Assembly: GCA_002711995.1 (NCBI GenBank)
Contig: PASN01000016.1
Location: 124,001 to 188,000, forward strand
Source: Halobacteriovoraceae bacterium
GTDB lineage: Bacteria; Bdellovibrionota; Bacteriovoracia; Bacteriovoracales; Bacteriovoracaceae
Direction of reading: 5' to 3'
DNA length: 64,000 nucleotides
Positions 24,444 to 40,216 of the stretch are shown here, piece by piece. A model generated the notes under the pieces. It did no database searches. It worked only from the letters and a program-made list of their open reading frames with translations, and was not told the DNA's origin. The stretch's first letter is position 1, and every line of letters begins with the position of its first letter. The translations under genes and the position numbers were made by a program.

Positions 24444-24636
24444 GTTAGCTCTTTAATAATGTACTCTACCGGTAATTATCGTGCGCTCTAGGCGCTTGTT
24501 TTCACGTTTTTAAGTAACTCACCATTTTTGGAATTTTACGGCCATGCGTCTACGGCCGTGCGAAATGAAAAGCCTTTTATTCTGCTTTAATTTTTGTCGC
24601 CAAACACAAATTAAAAAAGAAACAAAAGGCCCTCTT
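24444..24636. other. spacer before transposase
   Basis: Roughly 190 bases. It holds a hairpin ACGGCC/GGCCGT (24539-24560) and A-rich sequence. One IS end must lie in it, but I could not align terminal inverted repeats with the downstream side. Confidence 0.35.
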
Positions 24637-25923
24637 ATGATTAAAAATACTATTGAATTTGAAACAACAAGAAAAGACCTAACTCACTTATCAGGCCTGG
24701 TTTTCTTTCAAAAACTCGTTAAATCAACAAGTTTGGATAGCATCATAGGTCAAATAATTCCAAGCAAAAAGCGACTTAGAGGTCAATCCAACAAAGAAAA
24801 ATTCTTTACTGCCCTCTATTCCTTCATCGCAGGAGCTGACTGCATCGAAGATATAGAGATGTTAAAGCACGACCCTTTATTTAACGAGATTGCCAACAAA
24901 CCCTGTAGTGCTGTTACTATGGAAAGATTCTTAAAAAGCTTTAAGCTAAAGACCTATGAAAAACTGCAAAACGAACTTGCTCGCCTGGCCTATCGCCTTC
25001 GAGAGAAACTCTACCCAGATAATAATGCTTTAATTCTAAGCATGGATTCAACTCCACATCAACAATACGGAAAGTACATGGAAGGGGTCGACTGGAACTA
25101 TAAAAATATGTGGTGCCTGGACTCTCAAAACTGTTTTGACCAATTTGGATTTTGTTATGGTTGGCACTTGCGTGAAGGCAACACCTACTCTGCAAATGGT
25201 GCCGTCGAGATGCTTACGCGTATCTTTAATAACATCCCTAAAAACAAGGATGTCTTTTTTCGTGCAGACAGCGCCTATGGCAATAAAGGAATTTACAACA
25301 GTCTTCTCACTAACAGGGCTCACTTTGCAATTTGTCTTAAAGAAAATGTTTGGAAGCCTCTATTAAGGGATTATGAGAGCAAAGTGAAATGGAAGAAGAC
25401 CGACATCTACTTTTTCGACTCCAACAAGTGCGAGATTGGTTCTTGCCTTTATCCTTTAAAAGATTTGGCAATGGGAAGAACTTTTTTAAGAGTGGTCTTT
25501 ATTCGCGCCAAAAAGAAAAGGCTGGGACCTGGAGACAAAGAGTATTACCACCACTATGCAGTTGTCACCGACATGTCTGATAAGCAAATGAACGACGAAC
25601 GAGTCATTAAGTTCTACAAGAAGCGGGCCAACGTCGAGAACCAAATAAAAGATTTGAAAAATGGGATGGATTTTAAACACTTTCCTTGTCAGAAACTCAA
25701 TGCGAATCGAGCTTGGGGCATGATAGCCATCTATGCATACAATCTCATGCGCTTTGGAGCTCATAAGCTGCACAGGAAAAAAGGCTGTTTTCTCAAAACC
25801 GTCAGAAGAGAAATGATCTTCATCGCTAGTGAAATCAGAAAGGGACAACGAAAAATAAAGCTGCGTTTTACAAACCATATGTACCAGGAGGTGGAGAGAC
25901 TAGAAATTATGATGACTTCTTAA
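24637..25923 (+). CDS. IS1380-family-like DDE transposase
   Basis: 428 residues from ATG 24637. The upstream in-frame start at 24544 is less likely because its 31 extra residues are not family-like. Catalytic acids fit the IS1380 pattern: Asp137 in LSMDSTPHQQYGK, Asp211 in FRADSAYGN and Glu334 in KRANVENQIKDLKNG. HFPCQKLNANRAW in the C-terminal part is also typical of this family. Full length with no internal stop, so the element could be active. It is probably the latest insertion into the decayed island, next to the recombinase fragment. Inverted repeats and target duplication were not identified. Confidence 0.85.
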   Translation: MIKNTIEFETTRKDLTHLSGLVFFQKLVKSTSLDSIIGQIIPSKKRLRGQSNKEKFFTALYSFIAGADCIEDIEMLKHDPLFNEIANKPCSAVTMERFLKSFKLKTYEKLQNELARLAYRLREKLYPDNNALILSMDSTPHQQYGKYMEGVDWNYKNMWCLDSQNCFDQFGFCYGWHLREGNTYSANGAVEMLTRIFNNIPKNKDVFFRADSAYGNKGIYNSLLTNRAHFAICLKENVWKPLLRDYESKVKWKKTDIYFFDSNKCEIGSCLYPLKDLAMGRTFLRVVFIRAKKKRLGPGDKEYYHHYAVVTDMSDKQMNDERVIKFYKKRANVENQIKDLKNGMDFKHFPCQKLNANRAWGMIAIYAYNLMRFGAHKLHRKKGCFLKTVRREMIFIASEIRKGQRKIKLRFTNHMYQEVERLEIMMTS

Positions 25924-36600: not shown

Positions 36601-36794
36601 AATTTTTCCCTTGTCGTTCTTTTAAACCAAATACGTTTCGAACTCAAGGTTTATCGGGTGAACATCGTTTGGTTTATGAGATTGCGCGCAGCGCAAAAAG
36701 TCAATAGTTTTAGCTACTTATTTTTTGACGTAGTGTGATGGGTATCCTAGACTTTTTCTATAAGGAATAACTTTGTCGAAAGGGAGTTCACACT
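36601..36794. promoter_or_regulatory. nadA-parA divergent region with dyads
   Basis: Contains an inverted pair TAAACCAAA (36623-36631) and TTTGGTTTA (36668-36676), and a perfect palindrome TTGCGC-gca-GCGCAA at 36682-36696. Either may be an operator or, for the palindrome, a ParB-type site. The 16-base classical parS consensus is not present. AAAGGGAG precedes parA. Confidence 0.4.
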
Positions 36795-37571
36795 ATGGCA
36801 AAAGTAATCACTGTCGCAAACAATAAAGGCGGCGTGGGTAAAACCATGCAAGCTTATCAACTTTCCACATATCTTGCTCACAAGGGCAATAAAGTATTAG
36901 TAGTAGATTTAGACTCACAGGCCAACCTAAGCGTGACCCTGGGAGCCGATGTTAGAAGAACACTAATCCCAGAATGGCTAATAGGGGACGTGGACAATGA
37001 GGACGTAATTGTTCCAGCTGAAGGCAAGCAAGACTTTTACAATAACTTGTTTGTGATTCCTTCATCTCGACACATGGCAAACCTTGCAAAGCTTCTAATT
37101 CTTTCAGAGGCGGAAGTAAGAAAGAACGCCGGCAGAAAAGAGAGACTATTGAAGCTTCGCCTTGAAACTCTTAAAGAGAAGTTTGACTACATTGTGATCG
37201 ACACTCCTCCAATGCTTGGAGATGAGCTCATCATGGCCTTGGTTGCCAGTGATAGAATCTTTATCCCCACTCAGGCGCAGGACTATTCAATAGATGGTCT
37301 TGAGGAGCTTATGGACACTTTTGAAATCATTAAAGAAAGCGAAAACCCTTCTCTTGATTTCAGCATTATCCCTTCAATGGTTAACGGCAGAAGAAAAATT
37401 GAGCAAACTAGACTTGAAGAGCTTGCGCAATCTTTCAATGTTACTCCTTCAATTAGAAACTTGGTGGACATGCAAGAGTCAATCTCTTTGAGAAAACCGG
37501 TATTTCTAATGGGTAAGAAATCCAAAGGCAAAAAAGACTACAACAAGCTTTGGCACTCTTTGGGATTGTAA
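36795..37571 (+). CDS. parA: ParA-family partition ATPase
   Basis: 258 residues. Deviant Walker A KGGVGKTM (11-18) carries Met where the family has Thr or Ser, which is unusual. Walker A' DLDSQANLS and the B motif YIVIDTPP are standard. ParA binds DNA non-specifically when ATP-bound and moves ParB-bound cargo. The parB gene follows by 24 bases. The surroundings are core chromosomal (nadA, gdh), so this is likely a chromosomal or secondary partition pair, not a plasmid. No parS found nearby. Confidence 0.9.
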   Translation: MAKVITVANNKGGVGKTMQAYQLSTYLAHKGNKVLVVDLDSQANLSVTLGADVRRTLIPEWLIGDVDNEDVIVPAEGKQDFYNNLFVIPSSRHMANLAKLLILSEAEVRKNAGRKERLLKLRLETLKEKFDYIVIDTPPMLGDELIMALVASDRIFIPTQAQDYSIDGLEELMDTFEIIKESENPSLDFSIIPSMVNGRRKIEQTRLEELAQSFNVTPSIRNLVDMQESISLRKPVFLMGKKSKGKKDYNKLWHSLGL

Positions 37572-37595
37572 TTAGGACTGAAAGGAGAACGAACT

Positions 37596-38471
37596 ATGGC
37601 CAAGACTTTTGCGGCTCGCGTTTCAAAAAAGAAAAGAGAAAAGAAAGATATAGCTTCACACCTAGATCAGAAGATCTTTGAAATGAACGATGAAAAGCTC
37701 CTTCAGGGAGCTCGTCTCGACGACATCGCTCTTGCAAAAATTGAAGTAAGAAAACAAGTAAGAACAAAGTTTAATGACGACTCCATTGCGGAGCTTGCTG
37801 AAAACATCAAAGAAAACGGATTAATCCAGCCAATCGTGGTTCACAGAGAAGGCTCAAAATACGTTTTGATCTGTGGTGAAAGACGCTTTAGAGCAATGTC
37901 CACAATTGAAGACATGAAGGTTGCTCCATGTTTTATTCTTGAGGATAAAACTGATGAAGAGCTAATGGCGATACAGTTTTCTGAAAACTCCGCCAGAGAG
38001 CAGCTTCACTACATTGATCAAGCAGACTCAATCCACGGTTATAAAAAACTTACTGGAGCGTCTGAGAGAAAAATCCAAGCGGCCCTTGGCATCTCAAAGT
38101 CAGAAGTTCATAGATGCCTAACCATTGCCAAGCTTCCAAAAACCGTTAAGGAAGCTGCAAAGACACATAATACTGAAAAGTATGTGCTTATTGAGTGGGG
38201 CTCCCTTGAGCGCGGGAAAGTTAGAAATGATCTTAAGAAGAAGATTCTAGACGGAACCATCACCAAGAGACTTCAACTAAAGCGCGCAATTAACGCCGCA
38301 GGTGGCGTGGTTAAGGCCGGAAAGAAAAAGGCCGCAACTAAAAAGACAACAACCAGAAAGAAAACGACTGCCAAGACTTCCGATCTTTTAAAGCTAATGA
38401 AGGCAAAAAAGATGGACAAAAAGACTCAGGCAGCGTTGAAAGAGTTGCTTGATGAGGCCACTCTAAACTAA
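37596..38471 (+). CDS. parB: ParB-family protein with histone-H1-like tail
   Basis: 291 residues. The N-terminal ParB box is LAENIKENGLIQPIVV and GERRFRAMS, and the helix-turn-helix is in IQAALGISKSEVHRC. The CTP-contact motif appears as SENSAREQL. Residues about 240-263 are Lys, Thr and Ala-rich (KAGKKKAATK, TTTRKKTTAK), a histone-H1-like tail unusual for ParB; it may add non-specific DNA binding. A short helical C-terminus follows (dimerisation). RBS AAAGGAG. Confidence 0.88.
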   Translation: MAKTFAARVSKKKREKKDIASHLDQKIFEMNDEKLLQGARLDDIALAKIEVRKQVRTKFNDDSIAELAENIKENGLIQPIVVHREGSKYVLICGERRFRAMSTIEDMKVAPCFILEDKTDEELMAIQFSENSAREQLHYIDQADSIHGYKKLTGASERKIQAALGISKSEVHRCLTIAKLPKTVKEAAKTHNTEKYVLIEWGSLERGKVRNDLKKKILDGTITKRLQLKRAINAAGGVVKAGKKKAATKKTTTRKKTTAKTSDLLKLMKAKKMDKKTQAALKELLDEATLN

Positions 38472-38516
38472 ATTTCCCCCTGTAATACCGGATCTTTGTT
38501 CAATACAATGGAGTGT

Positions 38517-39251
38517 ATGAGCAAAGTATCCGGTTATTCTTCACCTTCTCAAATACCAAAAGCAACTTCCAGCGCTGTTGGCGCAAAAAACGTCGGGAAC
38601 AAACAAAGCTTAAAACCGGACTATGAAGTCTCGATCTCCAAGAACGCAAAAGAGCTGGAAAAAAGTTTAAAGAGCGAGAAAAAATCGGAAGTTAACCCCA
38701 CTGAGATCGCTCAAAAGATTCATGAAAAGAAGTTTGGAAAACTCAAAAGTCCCGGAATCTTTTTTGTTAGTGGCTTTGACTGGTTTGGAGCGAGCTCTGT
38801 GAAGGGCAATTATGATGGAATAAGAGATATGGCCGAGGCGGTGGAGGGAGCTCGCCACTACGCTTGGGATCAACAAGAAGAGATCCTAGACCAGATCAAA
38901 AAGAGAGACCCGAAAGAGCCAATTATTCTAGTTGGACACTCCTTTGGAGGGGACGCAGTCGTGGAAATAGCCCAAGAGCTTAATAAAATTGAAAACGGCT
39001 TTCGAAAAATCGATCTTTTGGTGACCCTAGACTCTGTAGGTATTGATAACGATATTATTCCTCAAAATGTGAAGAAGAATCTCAACTTCCTAGCGCAAGG
39101 AAACAGGCTTATTAATGATGGGCCAAACATTGCGGCCAACTATCAAAGAAGCGAAGTTTCAAACTTTTTAAGACACGAGGCCCATGCAGAACTTGATGAC
39201 ACCACAGACATTCAAGTTGCAGTATTAGAGGCCATCTCGGATATAGTCTAG
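38517..39251 (+). CDS. alpha/beta-hydrolase (lipase-like)
   Basis: About 244 residues from ATG 38517, preceded by GGAG. An earlier TTG start 21 bases upstream is possible. The nucleophile elbow is VGHSFGGDAV (G-x-S-x-G), the acid may be Asp in LVTLDSVGI and the His lies near the C-terminus (LRHEAHAEL). The N-terminal 80 residues are charged and probably disordered. No signal peptide. It stands in the same orientation as parAB with 45 bases between. Substrate unknown. Confidence 0.7.
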   Translation: MSKVSGYSSPSQIPKATSSAVGAKNVGNKQSLKPDYEVSISKNAKELEKSLKSEKKSEVNPTEIAQKIHEKKFGKLKSPGIFFVSGFDWFGASSVKGNYDGIRDMAEAVEGARHYAWDQQEEILDQIKKRDPKEPIILVGHSFGGDAVVEIAQELNKIENGFRKIDLLVTLDSVGIDNDIIPQNVKKNLNFLAQGNRLINDGPNIAANYQRSEVSNFLRHEAHAELDDTTDIQVAVLEAISDIV

Positions 39252-39340: not shown

Positions 39341-40216
39341 ATGCTAAGAAATTGTTTAAAATTTATACACCTACTAAAAGTTTTACAATCATGCTGCTTT
39401 TTGGCGATTGGGACTTCTTTTACCGCCAATGCCCAGGTTGGAAGAGCGCCAGCGAACTTTGTTCCAGATGACGACAAGATACTGGTTCCAATGGTCGTTG
39501 AAAAAAGCATGATGGATGAGTTTCACGAAAAACACGCCCACAAATTTAAAAACGCCAAGCAAAAGATTAAAACATGGATGGCGCAGGAAGAATATGCCGA
39601 GGTCTATGGTTTTGAAAACTCGGGTGTGGTTCCACTTCCAACCGCTGAGGAGAAACAAAAGTTCTTTGAAAGAAACTATTTAAGATTTATCACTAAGGAT
39701 ATTGAAAGAAGCGCCAATAGAAACGCAAAGCAAAGTGTGGAGGAGTGGTATGAGGACTTCAACTCCGATGACGAACTTGCTGCAATTGAGGCTCAGGAAG
39801 CTCATGAAGAGTTCATCATCAAAGCGAGAAAAAATCGAGGCCAAAAAGAGAATAAGATAGAGAAAGAGGTGAAGGTTGGTAAAAGCCGCATCCACTTGGA
39901 CGTTCAGCCAAGAGTGGAGATTGGCATGGTTAAAATAAGATTTAGAAGTCCTTTTCTAAAGGCCAGAGCTTGGGTTGGTATTAATGGAAACCAAGAAATT
40001 CAATTGGAGAGACGATTCAACTCCACCCAAACCAATGCTGAAGTAAACTATTTCATTGAACAAAAGAGAGTTCTTGCCTCCGTGGATCAAAGGCTTACCC
40101 GCAATTTAAGCTTAAGATTAACTCATGACAAAATTGACGCTGATGGTATCAATGCTCTAGAAGGAAAATCTTTCGAAAATAATGTTGTCCAGTTAAGATT
40201 TGGTATGGGATTTTAA
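39341..40216 (+). CDS. secreted protein with basic coiled region and beta C-terminus
   Basis: About 291 residues from ATG 39341, chosen because GAGGGAAGA lies just upstream and a signal peptide (LLKVLQSCCFLAIGTSFTANA) follows. The 63-base longer form is less likely. The middle part is charged and helical (KHAHKFKNAKQKIKTWM). The last 110 residues (RVEIGMVKIRFRSPF, then LRLTHDKIDADG) look like barrel or sheet strands ending in FGMGF, the aromatic C-terminal residue of outer-membrane barrels. Family unknown. Confidence 0.65.
   Translation: MLRNCLKFIHLLKVLQSCCFLAIGTSFTANAQVGRAPANFVPDDDKILVPMVVEKSMMDEFHEKHAHKFKNAKQKIKTWMAQEEYAEVYGFENSGVVPLPTAEEKQKFFERNYLRFITKDIERSANRNAKQSVEEWYEDFNSDDELAAIEAQEAHEEFIIKARKNRGQKENKIEKEVKVGKSRIHLDVQPRVEIGMVKIRFRSPFLKARAWVGINGNQEIQLERRFNSTQTNAEVNYFIEQKRVLASVDQRLTRNLSLRLTHDKIDADGINALEGKSFENNVVQLRFGMGF

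Follow-up and report, generated by a model that had tools for sequence, protein, structure and literature searches.

A second ParA–ParB pair across the Bacteriovoracaceae and a candidate second centromere at the chromosome origin

Introduction

Plasmid partition systems of type I have centromeres made of iteron-like arrays of tandem repeats. Noc, to our knowledge, has no ParA of its own.

For ParA-like ATPases the deviant Walker A motif has been given as KGGXXK[S/T] (PMC9178275). Canonical parS is read by Q162, K171, R173, N178 and the GHAR segment (Caulobacter numbering), and the positions that contact parS or NBS have been reported in the same work (PMC7383237). For Bdellovibrio bacteriovorus a single parAB has been described, along with two orphan ParAs that have no ParB-like gene next to them (PMC7186360), and two identical parS sites near the consensus (PMC10547168). 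The main text of a comparative genomic study of the phylum does not use the terms ParA, ParB or partition (PMC11656739). Among the matches listed in the open-licence literature on partition in Bdellovibrio, Bacteriovorax and Halobacteriovorax we found no description of the gene pair or the repeat array reported below, and the matches listed for two centromere systems on one chromosome origin contained none.

Results

The parA2–parB2 locus and its distribution

The window, by which we mean the whole stretch of 64,000 nucleotides analysed, is C16:124001-188000 of genome G000 (3.70 Mb in 23 contigs). It carries a ParA ORF and a ParB ORF, each matched in a Pfam search, with the following features.

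36725-36753, forward strand: predicted sigma70-type promoter of parA2 (-35 TTGACG at 36725-36730, 17-bp spacer, -10 TAGACT at 36748-36753)
36795-37571, forward strand: parA2, ParA/Soj-type ATPase of 258 aa that begins MAKVITVANNKGGVGKTMQ and has the signature NNKGGVGKTM...DLDSQ; PF13614, E 4.3e-45
37596-38471, forward strand: parB2, ParB-type CTPase clamp of 291 aa whose DNA-reading head is rewritten and whose altered C-terminus ends KAGKKKAATKKTTTRKKTTAKTSDLLKLMKAKKMDKKTQAALKELLDEATLN; PF02195, E 8e-17

Contig C7 of the same genome carries another ParA/ParB pair, with KGGVGKTTT in its ParA, after putative mnmG and rsmG genes. This C7 pair is the canonical, housekeeping parAB (ParA1/ParB1); the window pair is therefore a separate second one, which we name ParA2/ParB2. 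Two further proteins of G000 belong to these families: a third ParA-like protein (KGGVGKTT; L003:1237-2088), with no adjoining ParB seen in its 3.5-kb locus, and a third ParB_N protein (L011:1390-2421) directly upstream of a gene read as deaminase-like. Upstream of parA2, TTGAC[AGT] could be aligned within 260 bp of the gene in 76 of 80 loci, the next base being G in 82%, and a T-rich stretch is conserved at the -10 distance from it; together these probably mark a sigma70-type promoter.

In a set of 59 genomes, ParA2 orthologues with 65-97% identity were present in 36 of the 37 genomes from this family, a count that includes the window's own genome and a partial copy in G027 (the exception, G003, is 75% complete), and the best match outside the family reached 40%. 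A search with the ParB2 alignment gave scores at the ParB2 level in 109 of 116 class genomes, one of them a partial match in G124, as against none of the 208 genomes from elsewhere in the phylum. The 116 genomes are at least 80% complete and comprise one family with 45 genera. One genome outside the class, G314, passed the search threshold (3.8e-25), but at the level of a canonical ParB only. No ParB2 was detected in G027, G068, G079, G084, G131, G136 and G138; six of these seven assemblies have a completeness of 80-85%, and in G027 a contig ends within parA2. Since a single parAB is reported for B. bacteriovorus and none of the 208 genomes outside the class scores at the ParB2 level, the second pair is not a general property of multi-nucleoid predators. 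The 80 loci come from records labelled Bacteriovoracaceae, Halobacteriovoraceae, Halobacteriovorax or Bacteriovorax, or bearing looser or other labels (Bdellovibrionales, a few Bdellovibrio sp., Oligoflexia, Proteobacteria and one Epsilonproteobacteria).

The order parA2 then an ORF of the ParB2 cluster was seen in 35 of 36 loci, and parA2 was followed by a GERR-containing ORF in 78 of 80. The surroundings are for the most part conserved: by their translations, the genes upstream include one resembling cysteine desulfurase (33/36 loci) and nadA (29/36), and those downstream an unassigned secreted-type gene (30/36) and glutamate dehydrogenase (27/36). The gene directly after parB2 in the window (38496-39251) is weakly alpha/beta-hydrolase-like, below Pfam cut-offs, and is not part of the core locus, as its family occurs in only 6 of 36 loci. 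Two side observations concern the surroundings: a transposase-like ORF at 24544-25923 of the window, judged from its translation, and a perfect palindrome, CAAACGTT-N4-AACGTTTG, near the 5' end of a 418-419 aa ORF, probably glutamate dehydrogenase, in one group of loci (L144, L148, L161, L163, L173, L176 and L196).

Within the family ParA2 is more conserved than the housekeeping ParA, with mean pairwise identities of 74% for ParA2 (n=35) and 66% for ParA1 (n=33), and of 58% for ParB2 (n=35) and 55% for ParB1 (n=31). On the four contigs that carry both pairs, parAB2 lies about 290-390 kb from parAB1. A ParA tree of 50 rows placed ParA2 in a single clade (100/100) with a long stem, apart from the Soj fork; the fork with the Soj rows had a support of only 85/92 and several other rows were long branches. 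This tree does not support a recent duplication of the housekeeping ParA. Recent gain from a plasmid or phage was likewise rejected, as ParA2 has no close relatives in phages or plasmids (best listed about 37% identity) and ParB2 none in plasmids (best listed 40% over half its length). ParA2/ParB2 is a deep paralogue that has probably been vertically inherited in Bacteriovoracaceae.

ParA2 and the residue after GKT

36825-36848, forward strand: Walker A KGGVGKT (residues 11-17) followed by residue 18, which is Met here and in 79 of 81 ParA2
36906-36920, forward strand: DLDSQ (residues 38-42), where housekeeping ParA has D[LFM]DPQ

The first-pass annotation had described the Walker A motif of this ParA as altered by a Met after GKT, and KGGVGKTM does indeed occur in the ORF at 36795-37571. 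The remaining two ParA2 have Thr at this residue, as do all 34 canonical ParA1 of the same family (KTT), and the two groups also differ in Asn10 (81/81) versus Gln10 (34/34) and in DLDSQ or DFDSQ (81/81) versus DxDPQ (34/34). A DNA pattern encoding KGGVGKTM was found in 109 of the 116 class genomes and in none of the 208 others, so that, with its frequency among ParA2, the Met cannot be put down to chance; judged from these sequences, KGGVGKTM is a clade marker. The placing of the change within the motif did not survive: deviant Walker A ends at K[S/T], so Met18 falls just outside it, and all 81 ParA2 have a regular KGGxxK[S/T] in the form KGGVGKT.

Lys11, Lys16, Thr17, Asp38, Asp40 and Asp136 are invariant in alignments of 28 and 40 ParA2, which thus have both the Walker A' and the Walker B Asp. 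R199, R200 and R221 are also invariant, which is suggestive only. The AlphaFold model (pLDDT 82.7, pTM 0.87) has Soj/ParA as its nearest solved structures. We rejected a reading of KTM as the mark of a broken ATPase, given the invariant catalytic residues and the presence of KGGVGKTM in diverse ParA-like proteins of viral contigs (60 stretches, 55 ORFs read); ParA2 is, by its sequence, probably a working ATPase. Two of the viral-contig proteins (L247:1643-2437 and L269:586-1404) have the triple signature of ParA2, NNKGGVGKTM...DFDSQ, at only 30-37% identity.

The DNA-reading head and the tail of ParB2

37596-37637, forward strand: N-terminal peptide M.K.F..R..K..R (residues 1-14), proposed ParA2-activating element
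37875-37895, forward strand: CTP motif GERRFRA (residues 94-100), conserved in 35 of 35 ParB2
37983-37997, forward strand: CTP motif ENxxR (residues 130-134), with E, N and R in 35 of 35 ParB2 and 37 of 37 ParB1
38088-38114, forward strand: recognition helix G-I-S-K-S-E-V-H-R (residues 165-173), in place of GK[ED]RSxxAN
38175-38195, forward strand: EKYVL[LIV]E (residues 194-200), in 35 of 35 ParB2, in place of the GH[AG][KR] segment
38319-38366, forward strand: Lys/Thr-rich linker (residues 242-257), predicted to be disordered (AlphaFold, pLDDT <50)
38376-38465, forward strand: C-terminal helical hairpin (helices 261-270 and 275-290) of the AlphaFold model, at the place of the ParB dimerisation domain

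Heads were compared by aligning 35 ParB2 with 37 canonical ParB, of which 31 were from the family and six from outside. G94, E95, R96, R97, R99 and A100 are present in every ParB2, and the 37 ParB1 have the same residues except for Lys in place of R99 in two; with GERRxRA and ENxxR in 35 of 35, ParB2 retains the CTPase motifs. At the N-terminus, M1, K3, F5, R8 and K11 are invariant in 58 ParB2 and R14 occurs in at least 90%.

The DNA-reading residues are replaced. K168, H172 and R173 occur in 35 of 35 ParB2, in columns where 37, 36 and 37 of 37 ParB1 have R, A and N, and GH is found at the GH[AG][KR] segment in 37 of 37 ParB1. The full set of swaps from ParB1 to ParB2 is Q to E157, K to I166 (32/35), R to K168, A to H172, N to R173 and GH[AG][KR] to YVL[LIV]. 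With the Caulobacter numbers matched to alignment columns by us, these are parS/NBS-contact positions or their neighbours, and the aligned ParB2 do not have the canonical set of parS-reading residues. Nor do the aligned columns show the Noc set of specificity residues, Q173, K179, K184 and R201; the residues there are K168, S or C174 in most ParB2, K or R179 (matching Noc) and Y196. As aligned here, the unusual part of the pair is the DNA-reading head of ParB2, the CTP motifs having been kept. Because this head has changed and is nevertheless invariant, it predicts a new conserved site.

A Lys/Thr/Ala-rich tail had also been noted for the ParB at 37596-38471 and is present, but its likening to histone H1 was not borne out. 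The linker varies across the family, the tail has no Pfam match at E up to 1, and we found no conserved H1-like repeat domain; the model (pLDDT 82.9, pTM 0.51; best matches ParB/Noc CTPase structures) predicts a disordered linker and a helical hairpin instead of the canonical C-terminal dimerisation domain. Across 80 ParB2 the tails are variable in length and sequence, with a median length of 56 and a median net charge of +7 (charge at or below zero in six, one a truncated ORF), and 59 of 80 contain the helix motif [LF]xK[AVTIL][LMIV]. The K+T+A fractions of the window species (0.59) and of its close relative L117 (0.57) are the two highest of the 80; the extreme composition is limited to these two, and the basic tail is family-wide. 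On the model, the tail looks like a variable, mostly basic linker that replaces the ParB C-terminal domain rather than a histone domain. The five ParB1 C-termini inspected are of another kind. The first-pass annotation would have been refuted by KTM and the tail being widespread among relatives' housekeeping copies, and the 34 ParA1 and five ParB1 read do not bear that out. The suggestion of a non-canonical partition-type system stands, though not for the reasons proposed, as the enzyme class is changed by neither KTM nor the tail.

A candidate centromere at the origin

Our candidate for the ParB2 site, parS2, is a 16-bp near-palindrome, TGSYCCYATAGRACCA, often in tandem with copies 24-30 bp apart. 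It was discovered in a scan of four 400-kb regions, at the origin of G009, where six tandem copies of TGGTCCTATAGGACCA, exact or with one mismatch, lie inside a gene read as mnmE and one further copy of this type lies just after parB1. Twenty further origin regions were then fetched. Under a wider pattern that admits half-symmetric units, 119 sites were present in 338,649 bp, in 20 of 21 origin regions (mnmE/parAB1), or 19 of 20 if the discovery case is set apart. There were none in G006, in the three 400-kb regions of G004, G015 and G133, in 1,416,210 bp around 80 parAB2 loci, or in the window.

The strict form, TGGTYCTATAGRACCA with at most one mismatch, has 1 to 21 sites per genome in 112 of the 116 class genomes. 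Of the 208 genomes from the rest of the phylum 11 have it, at one site each; a reversed-pattern control matched 21 of the 116 and 24 of the 208, so that occurrence outside the class is at noise level. In the first genomes listed, the sites of a genome were nearly all clustered within a few kb. In several class genomes there is one strict site only (e.g. G000, G001, G017, G021, G022, G075, G076, G118 and G125), and a strict-form tandem array is therefore not universal in the class. Four class genomes have no strict site (G064, and G006, G137 and G139 of genus g5), and ParB2 is present in each of them. In the sole g5 origin region inspected, that of G006 (L500), no candidate parS2 was found and a looser search gave only AT-rich, chance-like pairs; a search for other tandem palindromes in the origin regions of G006, G022, G133 and G007 likewise gave only chance-like AT-rich pairs, in G006. 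The seven genomes without detected ParB2 do have sites, and their ParB2 is probably on missing contigs.

In G000 itself, ten units spaced 24 bp apart stand at the start of C7 (18-249), the parAB1 contig, and six more at the start of C18 (18-153); L518 and L527 are these array ends. The units are mostly of the half-symmetric form TGCCCCNATAGRACCA, and the assembly seems to break inside this array. Three parS1-like sites, each with one mismatch, are at the same C7 end, and single further candidate sites occur at C7:11216, C2:32958 and C18:113168. Many units, including most of those in G000, have a single perfect half only (TGCCCC...GRACCA). Canonical-type parS was present in 21 of 21 origin regions, with two to four parS1-like sites each, in the exact form TGTTCCACGTGGAACA in 12 and as variants in nine. 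The candidate unit resembles this local canonical parS, TGnTCC....GGAnCA, with the core TATA in place of ACGT.

Of the 119 sites, 62 are in frame 2 of ORFs assigned to mnmE and 32 in frame 2 of unassigned ORFs; 14 are between called ORFs, and the others are in mnmG, parB1 or other frames. Variation between Y and R within the sites, including G-T-type changes, alters the encoded amino acids and keeps the pairing of the arms. Because of this, and because sites are also intergenic or in other genes, the sequences indicate selection at the level of DNA. In the nine mnmE read, the G[PS]I repeats show next to no codon variation (GGT, [CT]CT, ATA, mostly CCA), and ATT is commoner than ATA overall in eight and equal to it in one. 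A half-site, ATAG[AG]ACCA, is found in the 150 bp before parA2 at 20 of the 80 loci, a 146-fold enrichment over background (20 matches as against 16 in 1,405,810 bp). When ParA2 is clustered at 85% identity these loci occupy only 2 of 34 clusters, and at 90% only 4 of 45, and so are nearly one lineage; the parA2 promoter of the window has no such half-site.

Other site candidates were set aside. Local palindrome searches at 80 parAB2 loci gave no ParB2 site; a palindrome near parAB2, AGTTYTCnGARAACT, encodes the invariant QFSENS stretch of ParB2; and a scan of parA2 and parB2 for synonymous constraint gave several windows above the mean, none of which fitted a hidden palindrome. A 17-bp palindrome, TGTCTAAAnTTTAGACA, occurs genome-wide in Bacteriovoracaceae and was intergenic in 18 of 23 loci fetched (L214-L236, site at 1501-1517), and by our own reading often lies upstream of sigma54-like TGGCAC-N5-TTGC promoters. 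We rejected it as a ParB2 site, since it is genome-wide and mostly intergenic and exceeds its control in some non-class genomes as well; it is probably the site of an enhancer-binding protein. A copy with two mismatches is at 39353-39369 of the window, at the 5' end of the gene downstream of parB2.

Discussion

The main interest of the locus is a class-wide second ParAB together with a candidate second centromere at the same origin. We consider it somewhat probable that parA2-parB2 is a second chromosomal system of ParABS type that acts on this origin through candidate parS2. The wider proposition, that two separate ParABS machines serve one origin across the whole class and provide two independently controllable centromeres, seems to us evenly balanced. 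From its motifs, ParB2 would be a CTP-dependent DNA clamp that binds the origin sites, loading at TGSYCCYATAGRACCA units in mnmE or beside parAB1 and then sliding and spreading. ParA2-ATP would coat the nucleoid and cycle on it, its ATPase triggered by the N-terminal peptide of ParB2, and Met18 may tune this activity without abolishing it. The basic linker and C-terminal hairpin of ParB2 could provide non-specific DNA contact and dimerisation. In this way the system would move origins or set their spacing along the cell, working in parallel with ParAB1/parS1; ParAB1 would use two to four canonical-type parS and ParAB2, encoded some 290-390 kb off, a different palindrome.

The co-occurrence of sites and ParAB2 is observed in one clade, where any other family-specific DNA-binding protein would co-occur too. 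It is possible, though unlikely, that ParAB2 is real and the array unrelated to it, with ParB2 acting in the manner of Noc or a transcription factor and the sites belonging to another family-specific protein such as a replication regulator. The genus g5 genomes that keep ParB2 without such a site, and the lack of sites within parAB2 loci, would fit this explanation; however, the unit resembles the local canonical parS with a changed core, as expected for a ParB with changed reading residues, the array adjoins parS1 and a half-site is present in the parA2 promoter of one clade. The shared location of candidate and parS1-like sites (20 of 21 regions) might instead reflect use of the array by both ParBs or by ParB1 alone, with ParAB2 as an accessory that modulates ParAB1 at the same centromere. 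We regard this as improbable, because ParB1 keeps the canonical reading residues and has canonical-type parS beside it in every region, and the array has the core TATA, not ACGT.

That most sites in assigned genes lie in mnmE, and in one reading frame, speaks against our main reading, and 32 more sites are in frame 2 of unassigned ORFs; the repeat could then be a feature of the MnmE protein (GPI[EG]P repeats) and not a DNA element. We judge this very improbable in view of the intergenic sites, those in mnmG, parB1 and other frames, the near-fixed codons in genes where ATT is as common as ATA or commoner, and the Y/R changes that alter the protein but keep the site. Scarcely more probable is an origin of the pair as a partition cassette of a plasmid or phage, since domesticated to position a cargo other than DNA. 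ParA2 does lie outside the family's Soj group in the tree, and ParA-like ATPases are reported also to position carboxysomes (McdA; PMC9178275), but ParB2 keeps its conserved HTH and CTP motifs, and neither protein has a close relative among the plasmid matches listed, nor ParA2 among those from phages.

If the origin-directed second system is real, this clade would provide a natural test of two questions: why a chromosome needs ParABS, as either system could be deleted with the other left in place, and how the DNA code of a ParB changes. It would also offer a second ParB/parS-type pair for DNA labelling. The subject bears on origin spacing in bacteria that divide non-binarily.

Chromosomal ParABS (Soj/Spo0J-parS) is alike in its deviant-Walker-A ParA, CTP-clamp ParB and origin-proximal palindromic sites. 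ParAB2 differs in being a second set beside the canonical one, at a distant locus and with other DNA-reading residues; the candidate parS2 units are often tandem with a TATA core, and ParB2 appears to be without the canonical ParB C-terminal domain. Noc/NBS offers the precedent of a ParB-derived paralogue with changed DNA specificity, and a Noc chain is the best sequence match to ParB2 among solved structures, but ParB2 has its own ParA, reading residues that are neither ParB's nor Noc's, and candidate sites at the origin rather than chromosome-wide. With plasmid type I partition ParAB2 would share a tandem-repeat centromere and a parA-parB operon; it is set apart as a core chromosomal locus of 45 genera with a candidate centromere away from the operon. 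The orphan ParAs Bd1326 and Bd2331 of B. bacteriovorus are likewise extra ParAs in a predatory relative, but have no ParB-like neighbour (PMC7186360), whereas ParA2 is paired with its own ParB.
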